NCBI RefSeq assembly: GCF_030814655.1
Contig: NZ_JAUSVK010000001.1
Coordinates: forward strand, 6,083,001 to 6,147,000
DNA length: 64,000 bases
From: Labrys monachus
Lineage (GTDB): Bacteria; Pseudomonadota; Alphaproteobacteria; Rhizobiales; Labraceae
Direction: 5' to 3'
Both the position numbers and the translations under genes were made by a program. Positions within the stretch are counted from its first letter, which is position 1. Each line of letters begins with the position of its first letter. Of the stretch, positions 51,878 to 61,564 are shown one piece after another. Under the pieces are notes generated by a model, which saw only the letters and a list, made by a program, of their open reading frames with translations, was not told the DNA's origin and ran no database searches.

Positions 51878-52675
51878 ATGTTCCGGGCGTTCGGTCTCTT
51901 TCGTGCGGCGAGCTGGACCGGCCTGACCAAATTCGCGATCCTGTTCGTCGTCGCGATGAATCTGGCGGGCCTCCACCATCTCACCGCCCTCTCCGCCTCG
52001 CTTTCGCTCGCGGGCCTGCTGCTCGGCGCCCTGCTCTACCGGCTCGGCGTACTGCCCTTCGGCGCCCGCCGGCGCCATTGGCTGCGCCTGCTGCGGGCGC
52101 ATCGCCCGGCGCTGGTCAAGCGCTGCCGCCAGTTGGTCCGCACCAACGCCTATGGCGCGGAGGAGTTCGGCAAATGGCACGAGGAACTGGGGCGATTCCG
52201 CGCCGCGACGGGGCTCGATCTCGACGAGCGGTCCTGCGAGCGCTTCGACGCCTTCGCGACGCGGGTGGTGAAGGGCTGGATCGCCGCCGAGGACGGCGTG
52301 GCGATGCCGGAGGCGATCGAGGACATTAGCCCGCAGGACTATGAGCATCTGTGCGCCGACCTGCTACGCCAGGCGGGATGGGACGCCGAGGTGACGGGCA
52401 TGTCCGGCGACCAGGGCATCGACATCCTGGCACGGCGGGACGACGTCTCCATCGCCATCCAGTGCAAGCTCTATTTCGGCAATCCGGTCGGCAACAAGGC
52501 GGTGCAGGAGGCCCATGCCGCCGCCGGCTACAGCGATGCCGACCACGCCGCCGTCGTCTCCAACCGCGACTTCACCGCCGCCGCCGAGCAGCTCGCCCGC
52601 AAGCTCGGCGTGCTGCTGCTCCATCACAGCGAACTGCCGGAGCTGCATGCGACGCTGGCCAGACAACAGGGATGA
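51878..52675 (+). CDS. Membrane-anchored Mrr-like restriction endonuclease
   Basis: This 265-residue protein starts with two hydrophobic segments (residues about 15-65). A helical middle region follows, then an Mrr-type PD-(D/E)xK domain: LRQAGWDAEVTGMSGDQGID, DILARRDD and AIQCKLYFGNPVG give the D-QxK active site (near residues 181-202). Mrr enzymes cut methylated DNA, but membrane-anchored forms are common and mostly uncharacterised. It converges on the first citrate synthase gene with only 6 bases between stops. Confidence 0.85.
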   Translation: MFRAFGLFRAASWTGLTKFAILFVVAMNLAGLHHLTALSASLSLAGLLLGALLYRLGVLPFGARRRHWLRLLRAHRPALVKRCRQLVRTNAYGAEEFGKWHEELGRFRAATGLDLDERSCERFDAFATRVVKGWIAAEDGVAMPEAIEDISPQDYEHLCADLLRQAGWDAEVTGMSGDQGIDILARRDDVSIAIQCKLYFGNPVGNKAVQEAHAAAGYSDADHAAVVSNRDFTAAAEQLARKLGVLLLHHSELPELHATLARQQG

Positions 52676-52681
52676 GCCCCG

Positions 52682-53773
52682 TCACGCCGCCCTGTCCGGA
52701 AGCGGACCGACATAGCGCGATTGCGGGCGGATCAGGCGGCCATAGAGCGCCTGCTCGCGGGCATGGCCGATCCAGCCGGCGACGCGCCCGGCGGCGAACA
52801 CGCCGGTGAAGCTCTCGCGCGGGAAGCCGAGCGCCTCCAGCAGCAGCGCGGTGTAGAACTCGACATTGATCTGCAGCGGCCTGTCCGGCTTGCGCCGCGC
52901 CAGGATGCGCGTCGCCGCCGCTTCCACGCCCTCGGCGAGGGCGAGCCGCCCGGTGCCCTCGCCGCCCGAGGCGAAGAGGCGCTGCACCGAACGCTTGAGC
53001 GCCTCGGCGCGCGGATCGCGCACGCGGTAGACGCGGTGGCCGAAGCCCATCAGCCGCTCGCCGCGATCGAGGGCTGCTTCCAGCCAGGCCTCGGCGTCGC
53101 CCGTGGCGGCAATGGCGTCGAGCATGTCGAGCACCGGGCCGGGCGCGCCGCCATGGAGCGGCCCCTTGAGGGCGCTGAGGGCGGCGAGCACCGAGGAGGT
53201 CAGGCCGGCATGGGTCGAGGCGACGACACGGGCGGCGAAGGTCGAGGCGTTGAGGCCGTGGTCGCTGACGGTGACGAGATAGATGTCGAGCGCTGCCGCC
53301 TCGGCCGGCCGCGCATCGGCGCCGCGCAGCATGCGCAGCATGTCGGCGGCGTGCCCGGCGCCGGCATCGGGCGCGATCGGCGCCTGGCCCCGGCGCAGGC
53401 GGACGATCGCCGGCACCAGCACGGCCGGCGCGGCGACGAGCCGCAGCGCCGTCGCCGCATCCTCGCCGTCGGCGAGTTGCGCCAGCGCGGCGCGCAGGGC
53501 CTCGGTCACCGACAGAGGACCGAGGCCGGCGCAGGCCGGCACCAGCTGCTCGAACACCCGGGTCCGCGCCTCGCCGAGATCGGCGGCGAGCTCCTCGCTT
53601 TGCGCCAGCCCGGCGACGAAGCCGTCGAGCAGCAGGCCGACAAGGTCCTCGTAGCGGCTGGACGCGGCGAGATCGTCGAGCGAATGGCCGCGTATGGTCA
53701 GCCGGCCCGCCAGCCCGTCGACATCGGACATCACCGTCTCCGTCGCGACGACATCATCCAGTCCGTTGTTCAT
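52682..53773 (-). CDS. Citrate synthase-family protein (paralogue 1)
   Basis: This 363-residue protein has the citrate synthase layout: VSDHGLNASTFAARVVAST (first catalytic His), LKGPLHGGAPG, MGFGHRVYRVRDPRA (second His) and the end LIRPQSRYVGP. At the position of the third catalytic residue, normally Asp in N(V/I)DF, it reads INVEFYT with Glu (about residue 305). The citrate or 2-methylcitrate synthase activity is therefore uncertain. GGAGAG 7 bases upstream supports the ATG at 53773. It is divergent from paralogue 2, with an operator-like palindrome between. Confidence 0.82.
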   Translation of the reverse strand: MNNGLDDVVATETVMSDVDGLAGRLTIRGHSLDDLAASSRYEDLVGLLLDGFVAGLAQSEELAADLGEARTRVFEQLVPACAGLGPLSVTEALRAALAQLADGEDAATALRLVAAPAVLVPAIVRLRRGQAPIAPDAGAGHAADMLRMLRGADARPAEAAALDIYLVTVSDHGLNASTFAARVVASTHAGLTSSVLAALSALKGPLHGGAPGPVLDMLDAIAATGDAEAWLEAALDRGERLMGFGHRVYRVRDPRAEALKRSVQRLFASGGEGTGRLALAEGVEAAATRILARRKPDRPLQINVEFYTALLLEALGFPRESFTGVFAAGRVAGWIGHAREQALYGRLIRPQSRYVGPLPDRAA

Positions 53774-53831
53774 GAGACACTCTCCCTTCATTCGCAAATC
53801 CATTTGCGAGGAGGATTCGGACGCATTAGGG

Positions 53832-53860
53832 TTGACGTCAATCTTGATTGAAATCGTCAA
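53832..53860. promoter_or_regulatory. Nested palindrome between divergent citrate synthase genes
   Basis: An inner inverted repeat TCAATC-TT-GATTGA (53838-53851) is flanked by TTGACG (53832) and CGTCAA (53855-53860). It lies 12 bases before the ATG of the HTH-citrate synthase fusion and would cover its promoter. It is a likely binding site for the fused HTH domain (inference). Confidence 0.65.
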
Positions 53861-53871
53861 TGTGAGATGCG

Positions 53872-55029
53872 ATGTCCTGGCTAACCTCGGAACAGGCGCT
53901 GGCGGCGCTGAAGGTCCAGCCGCAGACGCTCTACGCCAATGTCAGCCGCGGCAAGATCCGGGCGAAGCCCGATCCCATGGACACGCGGCGCAGCCTCTAC
54001 AATGGCGATGACGTGCGCCGTCTCGCCGGCCGCCATGCCGGGCGACGCAGCGCCGCCGCCGTCGCGGCGGAAACCATCTTCTGGGGCGAGCCGGTGCTCG
54101 TCTCCGGCCTCTCCACCGTGGCGCAGGGCAGGCTGTGGTATCGCGGGCAGGACGCCGCCCGCCTCGCCGAGACCGCCACGCTGGAAGAGATCGCCACCCT
54201 GCTGTGGGATGCCGGCGGCGTGCATTTCGGGCGGGCGCCGCACGAAGCGCCGCCGCCCGCGCCCGCCCCCGCCAATCCGCTGGAGGCCGGCCTGCTCGCC
54301 CTCGCCCGCCGCGCGGGAAACGATCCGCCCGCGCAGGGCCGCTCGGGCGCCGTGCTCTGCCGCGAGGCGGCCGGTCTCGTCGCCGAGATGGCGGGCGCCA
54401 TGCTCGGCGCGGCGGCGCAGACCGGCGGGCCGCTGCACCGGCGCGTCGCCGCCGCCTGGGAGGCGCCCGCGGTGGAGGACCTCGTCCGCCGCGCTCTCGT
54501 GCTGCTCGCCGACCACGAACTCAACGCCTCGACCTTCGCCGCCCGTGTCACCGCCTCGACGGGCGCCCCGGTCTCGGCCAGCCTCCTGGCGGGGCTGGCG
54601 ACGCTCGCCGGGCCGCTGCATGGCGGCGCGGCCATGGGCACGCGCGCCTTGGTGGACGCGGCCCGCCGCAACGGCGCGGTGCGGGCGGTGCGCGACTGGC
54701 TCGCCCAGGGCCGGCCCCTGCCGGCCTTCGGCCACCGCCTCTATCCCGACGGCGACCCCCGAGCCGCCGCGCTGTTCGCCCGGTTCCAGCCCGATGCGGT
54801 GTTCACCGAGATCCGCGAGGCCGTCGAGGCGCTGACCGGCGAGCAGCCCAATATCGATTTCGCCGTGGCCGCCCTGTGCGACGCCCACGGCCTGCCGGCG
54901 AGCGCCCCCCTCACCCTCTTCGCCGTCGCCCGTTCGGTCGGCTGGACCGCCCATATCCTCGAACAGACGACGAAGGGCACGCTGATCCGCCCGCGCGCCC
55001 AGTATGACGGGCCGCCGCCGGCGGGATGA
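53872..55029 (+). CDS. Citrate synthase-family protein with N-terminal helix-turn-helix (paralogue 2)
   Basis: This 385-residue protein begins with a MerR/excisionase-like helix-turn-helix (residues 1-55; LTSEQALAALKVQPQTLYAN then VSRGKIRAKPD and SLYNGDDVRRL). A citrate synthase fold follows with both His regions (LADHELNASTFAARV; PAFGHRLYPDGDPRA) and the catalytic Asp (QPNIDFAVAAL). A DNA-binding enzyme could regulate its own divergon. Active-site residues look intact, so it may also be catalytic. The divergent paralogue is the obvious partner. Confidence 0.85.
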   Translation: MSWLTSEQALAALKVQPQTLYANVSRGKIRAKPDPMDTRRSLYNGDDVRRLAGRHAGRRSAAAVAAETIFWGEPVLVSGLSTVAQGRLWYRGQDAARLAETATLEEIATLLWDAGGVHFGRAPHEAPPPAPAPANPLEAGLLALARRAGNDPPAQGRSGAVLCREAAGLVAEMAGAMLGAAAQTGGPLHRRVAAAWEAPAVEDLVRRALVLLADHELNASTFAARVTASTGAPVSASLLAGLATLAGPLHGGAAMGTRALVDAARRNGAVRAVRDWLAQGRPLPAFGHRLYPDGDPRAAALFARFQPDAVFTEIREAVEALTGEQPNIDFAVAALCDAHGLPASAPLTLFAVARSVGWTAHILEQTTKGTLIRPRAQYDGPPPAG

Positions 55030-55362
55030 CGGGAAGCGCACATCCCCCGGGACCGCGGGCGTCCCGCCCGCTCTTGAACCACTGCGGCTGCAGGAGAGGC
55101 GAGCCTGCAGCCGGTGCTGCGGCGGAAAGGAAGGGCGGACGAGACGTCCGCGCTCCCGGGAGCGCGCATCCCCTGGGACCGTGAGCGTCCCGCCCGCTCT
55201 TGAACCACACCGGTGGCCGGATGAGGCGAGCCTGCACCCGTTGCGGCAGCGGAGCAGAAGAGCGGACGGGATTTCCGTTGAAATCACGATTTGTTCTCAT
55301 CCCCTCTTGGCGCGCTCCCCGCCGCCCGCTATCGTCCAGTCCGGCTTGTGGCGGGGGCTCCC
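55030..55362. repeat. Intergenic region with two tandem 126-base repeat units
   Basis: Two degenerate copies start at 55036 (GCGCACATCCCC) and 55162 (GCGCGCATCCCC). Both contain GTCCCGCCCGCTCTTGAACC and GGCGAGCCTGCA. The junction GTCCGCGCTCCCGGGAGCGC joins the end of one to the start of the next. They belong to the same family as the element at 61484-61564. No gene is seen. Confidence 0.75.
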
Positions 55363-56907
55363 ATGGTTTCGCGTGTCTCGACGGTGGCGTTCGAAGGGGT
55401 CGAGGCGCGGCAGGTCGACGTGCAGGTGCAGATCATGGCCGGCTCCGTCGTCTTCATGATCGTCGGCCTGCCCGACAAGGCGGTGTCGGAAGCGCGCGAG
55501 CGCGTGCGCTCGGCCCTGGTCGCCTCCGGCCTGGCGCTGCCGGCCAAGCGCATCACCGTCAACCTGGCGCCGGCCGACCTGCCCAAGGAAGGCAGCCATT
55601 TCGACCTGCCAATCGCCCTCGGCGTGATGGCGGCCATCGGCGCCATCCCGCACGACGCGCTGGAGGGCTATTGCGTGCTGGGCGAGCTGGCGCTCGACGG
55701 CACCATCACGCCGGTGGCCGGCGTGCTTCCCGCCGCCGTCGCCGCCAATGCCAAGGGCCTCGGCCTGATCTGCCCGGCCGCGTCGGGGCCGGAAGCGGCC
55801 TGGGCCGCGGCGGACATGGAGATCCTGGCGCCGCGCTCGCTGATCCAGCTCGCCAATCATTTCAAGGGCACGCAGCTGCTCTCGCGGCCGCAGCCGCGCA
55901 TCGCCGCCGCGCCGACCAACCTGCCTGATCTCAACGACATCAAGGGCCAGGAGACCGCCAAGCGCGCCCTCGAAGTGGCGGCGGCCGGATCGCACAACCT
56001 CCTGATGATCGGGCCGGCCGGCTCCGGCAAGTCGATGCTGGCGGCGCGGCTGCCCTCGATCCTGCCGCCGCTCGCCCCGCGCGAGCTGCTCGAAGTCTCG
56101 ATGATCCATTCGGTGGCGGGCCACCTGGCCGGCGGCGAGCTGACCAATCGCCGCCCGTTCCGCGCCCCGCATCATTCGGCCTCGATGGCGGCGCTGATCG
56201 GCGGCGGCGCGCATGCCCGGCCCGGCGAGGTCTCGCTGTCGCATCACGGCGTGCTCTTCCTCGATGAGATGCCGGAATTCGCGCCGCAGACGCTCGACGC
56301 CCTGCGCCAGCCGCTGGAGACCGGCGAGGCCGTGATCGCGCGGGCCAATGCGCGCGTCTCCTATCCGGCGCGGGTGCAGCTCGTCGCGGCGATGAACCCG
56401 TGCCGTTGCGGCAAGGCCAACGATCCCGGCTTCTCCTGCCGGCGCGGCCCGGTGGAACGCTGCGCCGCCGACTATCAGGCGCGGATCTCGGGGCCGCTGC
56501 TCGACCGCATCGACATCGTCATCGAGGTGCCCGCCGTCTCCGCCGCCGACCTGATCCTGCCGCCGCCGGCCGAAGGCTCCGCCGAGGTGGCGGCCCGCGT
56601 CGCCGCCGCGCGCGCCCGGGCGTCGGCGCGCTACCAGGCGCTCGGCCTCGCCGAGGCCTCGACCAATGCCGGCGTGCCGGTCAGCGTCGTCGAGCAGGTC
56701 GCCAGGCCCGACGCGGTGGCGACCAAGCTCCTGCGCGACGCCGCCGACGCCATGCGCCTCTCCGCCCGCGGCTTCCACCGCGTCCTGCGCGTCGCCCGCA
56801 CCCTGGCCGACCTCGACGGCGAGGACGCCGTCGGCCGCATCCATGTGGCGGAGGCATTGAGTTACCGGGCGCGGACCGACCGCGCGACGGTAATTCAATC
56901 AGCGTAA
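55363..56907 (+). CDS. yifB: YifB/ComM-family AAA+ ATPase (Mg-chelatase-like)
   Basis: This 514-residue protein has an N-terminal ChlI/Lon-protease-like domain (residues 1-170), a Mg-chelatase AAA+ core with Walker A GPAGSGKSMLAARLP (near residue 221) and Walker B LFLDEMPEF (near 303), and a C-terminal domain. NPCRCGKANDPGFSC gives the zinc-binding cysteines. ComM is a helicase that promotes branch migration in natural transformation. The ATG at 55363 has a G-rich site 6 bases upstream. Confidence 0.92.
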   Translation: MVSRVSTVAFEGVEARQVDVQVQIMAGSVVFMIVGLPDKAVSEARERVRSALVASGLALPAKRITVNLAPADLPKEGSHFDLPIALGVMAAIGAIPHDALEGYCVLGELALDGTITPVAGVLPAAVAANAKGLGLICPAASGPEAAWAAADMEILAPRSLIQLANHFKGTQLLSRPQPRIAAAPTNLPDLNDIKGQETAKRALEVAAAGSHNLLMIGPAGSGKSMLAARLPSILPPLAPRELLEVSMIHSVAGHLAGGELTNRRPFRAPHHSASMAALIGGGAHARPGEVSLSHHGVLFLDEMPEFAPQTLDALRQPLETGEAVIARANARVSYPARVQLVAAMNPCRCGKANDPGFSCRRGPVERCAADYQARISGPLLDRIDIVIEVPAVSAADLILPPPAEGSAEVAARVAAARARASARYQALGLAEASTNAGVPVSVVEQVARPDAVATKLLRDAADAMRLSARGFHRVLRVARTLADLDGEDAVGRIHVAEALSYRARTDRATVIQSA

Positions 56908-57116
56908 GGTACTGAAGATAACAAGGAACCGGGGTACAGGAGGGCGGTTGAGCTTGTTTTGAATAATTTGCGCCTAGGCAGCACAGAGCCACAGCGGATT
57001 ATTCAGCACGCGCTCCCTCTCAAAACCGCACGTCAGTGACGAGGAAATCCGTCAGCCCGCTTGCTGATCGATGCTCCTCCAACTAGACATACCTGCATCG
57101 TTGGACAAGGGATAAA
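56908..57116. other. Boundary between core genome and AT-rich island
   Basis: Base composition changes here from GC-rich coding to AT-rich sequence. A probable promoter for the exonuclease operon lies before 57117 (AAGGGATAAA precedes the ATG). No gene, tRNA or integrase is seen. Confidence 0.45.
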
Positions 57117-57764
57117 ATGAATTTTGTGAGCTCAAACCCACTTCCTAATCAGATTGAAGCTGAGCAATCGGGCAACATCTTGGAGAGCAGGGTGGACGCA
57201 TATTTTTCCGCGGACGTTGAAACTGATGGTCCTATTCCCGGCCCTTTCTCAATTTTGTCGTTCGCCCTTGTTTATGCCGGCTCCTTTGATGGGAAAGCAT
57301 TTTCTCGGCCTCAGGATTACCATAAGAATATTTATCGAGAGCTGAAGCCAATCTCCAATAATTTCGAGGCTGATGCATTGCAGGTTAATGGTTTAGATCG
57401 CGATTTACTTGTTAAAAATGGTGAAAATCCCGAAACCGCTATGACAGAGGCGTTTAAATGGATAACAAAAGTTGCTGGACACGCAAATCCAGTCTTAGTT
57501 GCATATCCGTTAAGCTTTGATTGGTCTTGGCTATATTGGTATTTTGTTCGATTTTGTCCCAACGGATCGCCCTTTGGCTATTCTCGCTGTTTTGACATTA
57601 AAACCGCAGTTGCGGTTAAAAGTAAACTCCCAATCTCTCAGGCTGGTCGTTCACGTCTTCCGAATCATCTGATTCCAGCTTCACGTCATACTCACCATGC
57701 TTTAGATGATGCAATTGAGCAGGCGGAGATATTTGCTAACGTGTTCCAATGGGAGGAAAGATGA
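57117..57764 (+). CDS. DEDDh-type 3'-5' exonuclease of an AT-rich two-gene operon
   Basis: This 215-residue protein shows the DnaQ/RNase T-like exonuclease centre: Asp33 and Glu35 in SADVETDGPIPG, an Asp in LSFDWSWLYWYF (near residue 130), and the His and Asp in HTHHALDDAIEQAEIF (near 197-201). It lacks any polymerase or helicase domain. Its stop overlaps the start of a nucleotidyltransferase gene (ATGA at 57761-57764), so the products are made together. Codon use is AT-rich, unlike the flanking core genes, which suggests horizontal acquisition. The substrate (DNA, RNA or oligonucleotide product of the partner) is unknown. Confidence 0.8.
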   Translation: MNFVSSNPLPNQIEAEQSGNILESRVDAYFSADVETDGPIPGPFSILSFALVYAGSFDGKAFSRPQDYHKNIYRELKPISNNFEADALQVNGLDRDLLVKNGENPETAMTEAFKWITKVAGHANPVLVAYPLSFDWSWLYWYFVRFCPNGSPFGYSRCFDIKTAVAVKSKLPISQAGRSRLPNHLIPASRHTHHALDDAIEQAEIFANVFQWEER

Positions 57765-58762
57765 ATCAGCTAGAAAGCCGACGCGCCTATACTAGGGAGC
57801 GCACGATTGCGCTTCAATCAGAGCTGAACTCTGCCCGGACGTTGCTGGATGGGAAAGCATGCGTCTATGCTACTGGTTCATTCGGCCGCCTCGAAGCGAA
57901 TCAGAATAGTGATCTAGATCTCTTCATCGTAGGTAGAAATAAGGACGATTCTGGAGCGAACTCCGTGAGGTTAAGTCAGCTTAGTAGGCTGGACGAGATT
58001 TGCATAAAGGCCGATCTAATAGAATCTACAAGAAAACTTATAATACCTGATTTTGACGGAGACGGAAAATACCTTGTACATTATTCTTCGGGTGAACTGA
58101 TAAATACCTTAGGAATGCCGGAAGATGACGCAAATAACACTCTAACCGGCCGACTTCTTCTATTTTTGGAGAGTCGCCCCCTACTCGGCGAGGAGACTTA
58201 TAATTACGTTATTGACGAAGTGATTGCGGCATATTGGCGCGACTATGAAGATCATAAGGGCGAGTTTATGCCAGCCTTTTTAGCAAACGATATACTGCGA
58301 CTCTGGCGCACCTTTTGCGTCAATTACGAGGCTAGAACAGAACGAAAACCCGACGAGAAGAAAATTAAAGGAAAAATAAAGAATTACAAGCTCAAGCACA
58401 GCAGAATGCTTACATGTTATTCGGCCCTCTTATATCTTCTTGCTATATATAAGAGGGAAAACACTGTTTCTCCAAAGGACGCCTCGGAGATGACTCGTCT
58501 AACGCCGTCGGAGCGCTTGGAGTGGCTGCTTGTACAGCGGGATCTAAGCGAGGCTAGCGGTGAAGTTAGATCTTTAATAAACCAATATAATAAATTTCTA
58601 GGGGATACCGACTTCGACGAAGACACCCTTAAAGAGAAATTCATGAACCCCGAACAAAGCAAAAGATATATGAAAGAGTCGTATAGGTTCGGAGATTTAA
58701 TGTTTGAGGCTCTCTCCAAAATAGGAAGAGGAAATAGATTTTTTAGACTTCTTACTGTTTAA
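57761..58762 (+). CDS. Pol-beta-superfamily nucleotidyltransferase paired with the exonuclease
   Basis: This 333-residue protein has the nucleotidyltransferase signature GSFGRLEANQNSDLDLFIVG (Gly-Ser near residue 38, Asp-x-Asp near 50). The helical C-terminal half (from about residue 120) has no recognised domain. The N-terminal pattern resembles GlnD/DUF294-type and other stand-alone nucleotidyltransferases. The ATG at 57761 has GGGAGG five bases upstream and overlaps the exonuclease stop. An in-frame ATG 12 bases earlier is less likely. The pair could modify and trim tRNA or make and degrade a nucleotide signal; neither is proven. Confidence 0.75.
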   Translation: MNQLESRRAYTRERTIALQSELNSARTLLDGKACVYATGSFGRLEANQNSDLDLFIVGRNKDDSGANSVRLSQLSRLDEICIKADLIESTRKLIIPDFDGDGKYLVHYSSGELINTLGMPEDDANNTLTGRLLLFLESRPLLGEETYNYVIDEVIAAYWRDYEDHKGEFMPAFLANDILRLWRTFCVNYEARTERKPDEKKIKGKIKNYKLKHSRMLTCYSALLYLLAIYKRENTVSPKDASEMTRLTPSERLEWLLVQRDLSEASGEVRSLINQYNKFLGDTDFDEDTLKEKFMNPEQSKRYMKESYRFGDLMFEALSKIGRGNRFFRLLTV

Positions 58763-59479
58763 GAATGCGGATGCGGTGACAGAGGAGACGGTACCGTCGG
58801 TATTATAAGATCTTCTATGCCAATTTGGCAATAACAGATCTTGACAATTCGAAGCAAAAGTACGTTAAATTTGTAACGAAATACTTAGAATTACCTATGG
58901 TTTATAGGATTAATTTTTTTTATAATAACTGCTTTCTGAGGTGAGCAGGTCCGCTGAGAAATGAAGTTTATGGCTTCGTCGTGACTGTTATCTAAAGAAC
59001 TCATTTATCAATTGGAAGAATTAATAGGGCGTTAAAATGATCTTTTGTGCGCCGTCTAATATTCGTCGCATTCCTGCCGTTTAATACGGCACCGTGGTAT
59101 TGTATTATTAACTCGAACTCTCTAGACCACCGAGCTGGCGGCCTATGTTTCATTCCCTCAGTCCTCCTGAATTGTGCCCGATATGACTAAGGATTTTGGC
59201 GAAGCAGGCGATATCGCGGGCAAGGCCCTGGAGACCACAGTTCTGTCTTTCGAACTCTTGGTTAGATCGGCCGATGTTCTTGCATATGCCGACGGCGAAT
59301 CGGTTCTTTGATGTGAGGCCTTCTCTACGGTTGGCGAAACTTCGGGCTCGGTCCTGACAGGCACCCACCCAATTTTGCCGACGCCGTCGAGAAATCCGGC
59401 GCCCCCTTGTCGGCGCGGCATGGCCTCGTTCGTCATTGTGATGTGGATCAGCCCGCAGGCCACAAAGGAGAGGAAACCG
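58763..59479. other. AT-rich tail of the island and transition to core genome
   Basis: No intact gene is recognised. Bases 58763-59150 are AT-rich with several palindromes, for example GACGGTACCGTC (58787-58798) and AATACGGCACCGTGGTATT (about 59080-59100). From about 59160 the sequence becomes GC-richer, with open but unrecognised minus-strand frames that may be decayed genes. Confidence 0.5.
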
Positions 59480-59845
59480 ATGAGCACGAACGACACCTAC
59501 CTCGCCGTCTTTCTCGGCAGCAGGACCAGCCCGCGCATGACGGCGTGGCTGGCGCTTCCCGACGCCGAAAGGCGTGCCCGGGAACAGGAGGGCATGGCCG
59601 CCTGGAAAGCCTGGGTCGACAAGCACCAGGCGGCGATCGTCGCCATGGGCGGCCCGCTCGGCAGGACGAAGAAGGTCTCCGAACGCGGCGTCGAGGACGT
59701 CGGCAATGCGATGGCCGCCTTCACGCTGGTGCGGGCGGAGTCGCATGAGGCCGCCGCCGCCTTGTTCGAAAACCATCCGCATTTCGCGATCTTCCCCGGC
59801 GAGTCCGTCGAGATCATGCCGGTCCTGCCGATACCCGGCGCCTGA
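59480..59845 (+). CDS. YCII-related domain protein
   Basis: This 121-residue protein matches the YCII-like/DGPF pattern: a small alpha-beta protein with GGPLGRTKKVSERG near residue 57, AAFTLVRAESHEAAAALF and HPHFAIFPGESVEIMPVLP at the end. The family occurs as stand-alone proteins next to sigma factors or SRPBCC proteins; the function is unknown. AAAGGAGAGG precedes the ATG. An SRPBCC gene follows after 43 bases, probably in the same operon. Confidence 0.82.
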   Translation: MSTNDTYLAVFLGSRTSPRMTAWLALPDAERRAREQEGMAAWKAWVDKHQAAIVAMGGPLGRTKKVSERGVEDVGNAMAAFTLVRAESHEAAAALFENHPHFAIFPGESVEIMPVLPIPGA

Positions 59846-60332: not shown

Positions 60333-60503
60333 GGGAACGGGGACGACGGAAGAGCGGCGGTGCGGGAGCGCCGCCCTTCTCTACCGCCCCGAAGGCGCCC
60401 GCCCTGTACAATAAGCTTCCGCCTCGCTTATTGTTGTCACAAATGTTTCTGCATCGTGTGATCAACAGGCGGGTCATGGGGAACGTACGGGCAGGGGCTC
60501 CAG

Positions 60504-61475
60504 ATGCCGAAGGCAATGCCGAAATACACGACGCCGAAGGGCTTTCTCGCGATGATGGATCCGCGCGGGTGGGGCGAGCGGTTCCAGGGCAACATCGTGC
60601 CGCTGGCGCCGCGTCGGCTGAAGCCGGCGCTGCGGCTGCGCCGTGCCGAGAATAGCGGGTTGCCGATGACGCTCGGCCGCATCGGGTCCCTCGAGGTCCG
60701 CCTCGCCCGGACTGCCAAGGACGTCAAGAAGGCGCAGAAGCTGCGCTACCAGGTGTTCTACGAGGAGATGGCGGCGGTGCCGAACGCGCTCTCGCTGTTC
60801 TCCAAGCGCGACCGCGACGAATATGACACGCTGTGCGACCACCTCCTGGTCATCGACCACGATGCGCCGCCCAAATCCTTCGGCAAGCCGGCGCCCCGCG
60901 TCGTCGGCACCTACCGGCTCCTGCGCCAGGAAATCGCCGAACGCCATGGCGGCTTCTATTCGGCAAGCGAATTCGCCATCGAGCCACTGATATCGGCCCA
61001 TCCCGGCCGCCGCTTCCTCGAGCTCGGCCGCTCCTGCGTGCTGGCGCCCTATCGCAACAAGCGCACGGTGGAGCTGCTCTGGCACGGCATCTGGACCTAT
61101 GTCCTGCATCACCGCATCGACGTCATGCTCGGCTGCGCCAGCCTGGAGGGCACCGATCCGAGCCGCCTCGCTTTGCCGCTCGCCTTCCTGCACCACCACG
61201 CCACCGCCGCCGGCGAATGGAGCGTCAAGGCGGTGCCGGAGCGCTATGTCTCCATGAACCGCATCGGCAAGGAGGGCATCGACGCGAAGGCGGCGCTGCA
61301 CGGCCTGCCGCCGCTGATCAAGGGCTATCTGCGCCTGGGCGCCTGCTTCGGCGACGGCGCGGTGGTCGACCACCAGTTCGGCACCACCGACGTCCTGGTC
61401 ATCCTGCCGGTCGAGAAGATCAGCGAACGCTATGTCGGCCATTTCGGCCCCGGGGCCGAGCGCCACGCGGCCTGA
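60504..61475 (+). CDS. olsB: GNAT-family acyltransferase, OlsB-like (ornithine lipid synthesis)
   Basis: This 323-residue protein has the OlsB/hemolysin-type acyltransferase pattern: KAQKLRYQVFYEEMAA near residue 78, KRDRDEYDTLCDHLLVID, VGTYRLLRQE, FLELGRSCVLAPYRNKRTVE and GCASLEGTDP. OlsB transfers a 3-hydroxyacyl chain from ACP to ornithine, making lyso-ornithine lipid. No olsA-like O-acyltransferase is next to it. The length is slightly above typical OlsB; ATG at 60516 is an alternative start. Confidence 0.82.
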   Translation: MPKAMPKYTTPKGFLAMMDPRGWGERFQGNIVPLAPRRLKPALRLRRAENSGLPMTLGRIGSLEVRLARTAKDVKKAQKLRYQVFYEEMAAVPNALSLFSKRDRDEYDTLCDHLLVIDHDAPPKSFGKPAPRVVGTYRLLRQEIAERHGGFYSASEFAIEPLISAHPGRRFLELGRSCVLAPYRNKRTVELLWHGIWTYVLHHRIDVMLGCASLEGTDPSRLALPLAFLHHHATAAGEWSVKAVPERYVSMNRIGKEGIDAKAALHGLPPLIKGYLRLGACFGDGAVVDHQFGTTDVLVILPVEKISERYVGHFGPGAERHAA

Positions 61476-61483
61476 CGCCTTCC

Positions 61484-61564
61484 CGGGAGCGCGGACATCC
61501 TGTCCGCATCCGGGATGCGCCGCACGTTGAGGAAGGAAGAGCGGACGGGAAGTCCGCGCTCCCG
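61484..61564. repeat. REPIN/MITE-like element with 13-base perfect inverted ends
   Basis: The ends CGGGAGCGCGGAC and GTCCGCGCTCCCG are exact reverse complements, flanking about 55 bases with a further inner hairpin (GCATCCGGGATGC). Related units are at 27098 and, as tandem units, at 55036-55287. Confidence 0.8.

Follow-up and report, generated by a model that had tools for sequence, protein, structure and literature searches.

The window, a 64,000-nucleotide stretch of the Labrys monachus genome, carries two overlapping genes on its forward strand. The first, here called EXO (57117-57764, +), encodes a 215-aa DEDDh 3'-5' exonuclease with residues D33, E35, D135, H193 and D198; the second, NT (57761-58762, +), encodes a 333-aa nucleotidyltransferase of the Pol-beta superfamily (NTP_transf_2) with G39-S40 and D51-x-D53. 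NT begins at an inner ATG of an open reading frame listed from 57749. At the junction (57749-57764, +), as read from the sequence, a GGAGG lies in the final EXO codons, 6 bases 5' of an ATGA stop/start overlap that occupies 57761-57764. Both genes are open, and the coordinates and four-base overlap reported in the first-pass annotation of this DNA are correct. GGAGG recurs at the same junction place in 9 of 14 paired loci (counted by eye), and across the 14 the aligned start of NT falls between -29 and +3 bases from the stop of EXO. The block was also described as AT-rich, with an AT-rich non-coding tail, and it is both. The genes form an island of about 44% GC in a window of about 66% (EXO 0.438, NT 0.436, whole window 0.658); the tail falls to 0.40 (58763-59200), and no convincing gene occurs in 58763-59400. 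Allowing for some short flanks, the module is lower in GC than its upstream flank in 13 of the 14 loci (L011 ties) and than its downstream flank in 12 of the 13 measured (L014 is the exception; L054 is without downstream sequence).

Upstream of the module lies yifB, which is present in four congeneric genomes at 84-86% DNA identity. By blastn, homology with all four congeners stops at the end of yifB (56882-56891) and resumes at 60476-60533, and the left edge of the island occupies 56892-57116. The slot between the homologous ends spans 3.6 kb in the window and 2.0-3.1 kb in the congeners, all four of which hold other DNA there. Since homology is broken from the end of yifB until 60476-60533, we regard the stretch as a variable slot. 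Of the two GC-rich core genes originally proposed as borders, the YCII gene is no conserved border. When the congeners were searched genome-wide, three gave no relative of NT, and one (G747) gave a distant relative (35% identical), located elsewhere in its genome next to an HD protein. No 10-14 base word, direct or inverted, is common to 56851-57117 and 58763-59480, such as might mark flanking repeats or attachment ends, and the tail (58763-59400) shares none with the left edge. Counts of promoter-like and terminator-like sequences fall within the range of shuffles.

Relatives of NT occur widely. A scan of 84,980 species genomes, based on short patterns that miss relatives and therefore giving lower bounds, found at least 13 that are 51-67% identical in the best segment, and a scan of viral contigs (IMG/VR) added at least two close copies (61% and 51%) and one distant (L056, 36%). 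Of the 16 close copies (window included; 51-67% identical), 14 have EXO directly upstream, which indicates that the pairing is more than chance. The paired loci are the window, L004-L008, L010-L015, L054 and L055; the named hosts belong to the Pseudomonadota, Acidobacteriota, Myxococcota and Verrucomicrobiota, and two of the loci (L054 and L055) are IMG/VR contigs with phage genes. The prediction that the two genes stay together is thus upheld for the most part. It would be weakened by homologues that are not neighbours, and L009 is one exception, having a full-length NT with no EXO end within the 120 bases 5' of it, where the contig starts. The other unpaired copy, L016, preserves just a fragment of NT, and its contig (4.2 kb) has no EXO. 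No third gene accompanies the pair: among the window and L004-L016 (L054 and L055 were left out, and antisense frames over EXO and NT set aside), no other ORF family is common to two EXO-type loci. In three of 13 loci checked (L010, L013 and L015), NT is cut short or frameshifted while EXO is open, and the reverse was found in none. In L010 the cut falls only near the end of NT, close to the contig edge; in L013 a transposase-like start follows the break, as judged by eye. By hand calculation, this 3-to-0 result is at chance level (about 0.22) from the longer gene alone.

The settings of these loci point to mobility. In L014 the module sits inside a BREX cluster, on the opposite strand; one flank holds BrxC, PglX and a pair of unassigned genes, the other PglZ, BrxD and BrxHI. 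The L054 copy comes after an integrase gene, and the L055 copy is close to genes for a phage-type regulator and terminase. A tRNA-Gln gene lies 42 bases 5' of the EXO ORF in L008, and a tRNA-Val gene lies approximately 375 bases 5' in L010. NT itself found no match among plasmids and phages at E 1e-5 or 1e-2; with a distant NT relative as query, four plasmids were found. The first-pass annotation had called the block transferred cargo, and the other DNA at this spot in all four congeners, the GC island, and the BREX, integrase and phage settings bear it out. The module is, then, real, conserved and mobile. It is probably also defensive, judging from the company it keeps: the antiphage or conflict role first suggested for it is made plausible by the copy in the BREX cluster and by the two viral contigs with phage genes.

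The wider flanks are less telling. Defence models were run on 83 of 85 listed ORFs (at least 130 aa, within 6 kb; L013:1945-7182 and L016:1070-2476 were left out), and on seven ORFs flanking L014 separately. The 83 gave 39 model matches at 1e-20, each in one ORF, a raw count without a chance baseline. Among the 25 of these 39 that were listed are a type III restriction enzyme and methyltransferase, a candidate pair that we place at L009 by size and first residues, and strong matches to the RmrA, PDC-M41B, PDC-M30B and MzaA models, which may be ordinary enzymes. Many flank ORFs look ordinary by eye, and few genomes have the pair: among 385 drawn from across the class, the sole EXO-type NT was the window's own (0 of the 384 others), and the five other matches belonged to HD and 2H-like branches discussed below. 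Both observations would suit genes of RNA or nucleotide metabolism that have no defence role and spread as a pair by happenstance. We consider this improbable, however, in view of the occurrence in several phyla, the BREX and prophage settings, the GC content mostly below that of the flanks, and the other DNA in congeners.

EXO matches the Pfam model Rv2179c-like above its cut-off (1.4e-8) and RNase_T just below its own; no Pfam HEPN match was found. It also matches the PADLOC model PDLC00753, 'Effector/Exonuclease' (3e-37), and, in the PDB, the 3'-5' exonuclease 7t2s (3.7e-19), which we take to be Cap18, and RNase T (2f96; 3.2e-6). An alignment of 19 EXO sequences, that of the window among them, shows no variation at D33, E35, D135, H193 or D198. 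Of the catalytic residues initially assigned, Asp33 and Glu35 are as stated; the His-x3-Asp is not, the actual pair being H193 and D198, or H-x4-D, the usual DEDDh spacing. By the PDLC00753 and 7t2s matches, EXO belongs to the same DEDDh sequence family as the Cap18 of CBASS. It differs from Cap18, nevertheless, in that the 14 NT-paired copies form a clade of their own (support 98/97 in a tree of 28 rows), approximately 31-37% identical to CBASS copies, and in that the island comprises two genes only. The link of EXO to CBASS rests on gene neighbourhoods. One relative (32%), from a Klebsiella plasmid, has around it the Cap18 gene order given in excerpts of PMC9122588, and another lies inside a SAVED/cyclase/ThiF/Mov34 operon. 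In 10 plasmid contexts, drawn from 91 matching records, the family adjoins unrelated CBASS-type nucleotidyltransferases in five; the other five are without one, two having an ATPase beside EXO and one record being unannotated. The closest plasmid copies (47%) are on three Streptomyces longwoodensis plasmids; the one examined is out of frame and has no NT alongside.

NT matches Pfam NTP_transf_2 at 6.3e-5 (23.7 bits, cut-off 21). Its second half is conserved and covered by no Pfam model. The Gly-Ser and Asp-x-Asp motifs, recognized from the outset, are confirmed: all 18 sequences of the NT alignment, one of them the window's, have G39, S40, D51 and D53, the last two being the catalytic acids recognized. 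NT also belongs to the PADLOC candidate family PDC-M70A, which it matches over residues 10-284 at 2.5e-25 (the library is without cut-offs). Copies paired with PDC-M70B (L051 and L052) score far better on this model (1.1e-146 and 3.3e-149), so NT is a distant member; four further matches, in G131, G373, G056 and G295, are marginal (E 1.1e-4 to 9.2e-4). Like NT, the nucleotidyltransferase of PDC-M70 has a gene that overlaps a single partner gene, but PDC-M70B lies after the nucleotidyltransferase, whereas the DEDDh exonuclease of the window lies before NT. The PDC-M70B model found no match in EXO up to E 1, and none in four genomes including the window's own (G000); 14 control genomes were equally blank. 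As far as these models tell, the module shares one of its two parts with PDC-M70. Neither the EXO/NT pair nor the name PDC-M70 was found described in open-licence full texts. The original statement that no such system was known hence applies to the pair, though not to its parts, PDC-M70A and the Cap18 family; on present matches, these are known parts in an arrangement that we have not found described.

The more distant relatives of NT (21-34% identical over the alignment; L056, 31%) keep other company. In L020-L022, L111 and L050, an HD phosphohydrolase gene overlaps the NT relative or lies within 30 bases of it. One further genus has no partner gene directly beside NT, and an HD gene 0.5 to 8.4 kb off on the same contig in all three genomes. 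A protein that resembles 2H enzymes in having two H-I-T motifs (motif only) neighbours the relatives in L018 and L056, and found no PDB match; in L056, a viral contig, the gene at L056:6888-9155, directly 3' of the NT relative, joins the 2H-like domain to an apparent DNA methyltransferase (by eye). PDC-M70B, beside the relatives in L051 and L052, has a weak CbiR match far below cut-off, and one copy is annotated as a sugar phosphate isomerase/epimerase, hints that it might be a TIM-barrel. A histidine phosphatase lies beside the relative in L053 only, inside a sugar operon, and is possibly unrelated to NT for that reason. Partner type tracks lineage in small trees of both NT (25 rows) and EXO (28 rows). 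In the NT tree, which carries long-branch warnings, L009 falls in one group (89/91) with 13 EXO-paired copies, next to the two 2H-like copies. L050 is the E. coli plasmid pISHS7_5 (4.5 kb), which encodes an HD protein and a PDC-M70A-type nucleotidyltransferase. The HD gene spans the start of the plasmid record and is absent from the annotation, and the nucleotidyltransferase gene was found by DNA search in 1 of 5,426 E. coli genomes.

Nucleotidyltransferases occur in several known two-gene systems, and the module was compared with these. MntA nucleotidylates and silences HepT, and NT might likewise tag and silence EXO as a toxin. The gene overlap would suit a toxin-antitoxin pair, and weak MntA-like matches occur in NT (E 0.057) and in its relatives L051 (1.3e-4) and L050 (0.009). 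The match in NT, however, reaches 13.3 bits where the cut-off is 60, the partner is not a HEPN protein, NT carries a large extra conserved half, and EXO is still open in the three loci in which NT is broken. We think protein tagging very improbable. Membership in the HepT/MntA type VII systems is rejected on the same MntA score and the lack of a HEPN match in EXO, and membership in MenAT/AbiE on the lack of an AbiEii/MenT Pfam match up to E 1. Both resemble the module as two-gene pairs that include a nucleotidyltransferase, and differ from it in that the partner here is an exonuclease. For GlnD, too, any matches of NT were weak ones of the kind that nucleotidyltransferases give in general. Hailong (HalA and HalB) likewise defends with two genes, one of them for a nucleotidyltransferase; its HalA, a membrane protein, is unlike the exonuclease here, and NT scores 13.3 bits on the HalB model, whose cut-off is 190. 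NT matched six PADLOC models up to E 1, and not one of these is named as a CD-NTase of CBASS.

Clover, as portrayed in excerpts of PMC12265719, also consists of two genes, for a nucleotidyltransferase (CloB, which makes p3diT) and a nucleotide-cleaving enzyme (CloA); CloA, however, is an HD dGTPase, and the partner of NT is a DEDDh exonuclease. Starting from PDB entries for CloA, we reached one proxy for CloB, L077 (259 aa), picked since the protein encoded next to it shares 50% identity with a 311-residue piece of CloA; NT shows no sequence kinship to this proxy (BLASTP E 0.39; hhalign probability 0.9%). Clover membership is rejected on these comparisons; whether the module works like Clover is a separate matter. 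The proxy comes from a Phaeobacter plasmid, typed as conjugative, on which L077:2036-4266 encodes the dGTPase with 50% identity to the CloA piece, followed by the 259-aa nucleotidyltransferase-like 'hypothetical' protein, and is a probable Clover operon in its own right.

The main rival to the mechanism that we favour is of this kind. EXO could be an antiphage effector gated by an oligonucleotide that NT makes, either activated by it, as in CBASS, or restrained by it, as in Clover and Hailong. EXO is kin to exonucleases of CBASS operons, and a constant nucleotidyltransferase with changing partners has the look of a sensor plus effector. The Clover nucleotidyltransferase product restrains its partner hydrolase, according to excerpts of PMC12265719, in which the legend to Extended Data Fig. 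1a refers to approximately 650 CloB homologs coloured by adjacent effector; exonucleases may, for all the legend says, be among those effectors. EXO, on the other hand, consists of the exonuclease domain alone and has no evident sensor, and, in excerpts of PMC9122588, a catalytic-dead Cap18 left the protection of one CBASS against phage lambda unchanged. The three loci with open EXO and damaged NT are slight evidence against a model in which a toxic EXO is held in check. We consider gating unlikely, although to be taken seriously.

Our preferred reading, which we put forward tentatively and at somewhat less than an even chance, is that NT makes a nucleotide product or tag and EXO removes it. 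The module would be a horizontally moving conflict module of two genes, most likely antiphage, translated as a coupled pair. NT would act as a template-independent writer, adding nucleotides to a cellular target such as the 3' end of an RNA or tRNA, or making a short nucleotide product; for comparison, MenT toxins extend tRNA acceptor stems, as related in part of PMC10435456. EXO would be an eraser, similar to RNase T and Cap18, that removes or limits this product. Infection would upset the balance, and the NT product would then halt growth or phage replication. In the sister branches of NT, other hydrolases would take the part of partner. The pairing in 14 of 16 close copies and across four phyla with no shared third ORF family is in keeping with such a division of labour, as are the sister branches beside HD, 2H-like, PDC-M70B and histidine phosphatase proteins. 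EXO, moreover, resembles RNase T weakly, and its 215 aa leave little room for a ligand domain. Going by family, each of the partner classes would cleave P-O bonds (for PDC-M70B this reading is weak), and this, together with the EXO relatives beside CBASS-type nucleotidyltransferases, is why we favour a writer and an eraser. The damaged NT genes with open EXO in L010, L013 and L015 fit, but are no more than the greater length of NT could yield by chance. L009 points the other way: its NT is intact although no EXO ends within the preceding 120 bases, so a cell may tolerate NT with no neighbouring EXO.

More broadly, the NT lineage could underlie an additional class of immunity based on nucleotides, in which a writer of unknown product is joined, branch by branch, with a different hydrolase that either erases the product or is gated (DEDDh, HD, 2H-like or PDC-M70B), and which arose separately from CBASS, Clover and Hailong. 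We regard this proposal as speculative and rather doubtful, if worth entertaining. If true, bacterial nucleotide-based immunity would have a further branch, and nature would have done an experiment by placing the same nucleotidyltransferase with several unrelated hydrolases. The common substrate or controller of all these hydrolases should then be the nucleotidyltransferase product. It would also give a hint of the role of Cap18 in CBASS, where, in the excerpts of PMC9122588 already mentioned, protection was unaffected by catalytic death of Cap18.

The window has several other notable features. An ORF with a hydrophobic start (51878-52675, +), approximately 4.5 kb from the module, found no PDB match up to E 0.1; its second half resembles, by motif, an Mrr-type restriction endonuclease. 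Two divergent citrate-synthase-like genes follow (52682-55029), and the one on the + strand starts, by eye, with a helix-turn-helix-like segment. Just before yifB there are two 120-base direct repeats, 82% alike (55032-55150 and 55158-55277), and a further 32-base match occurs at 61533-61564.
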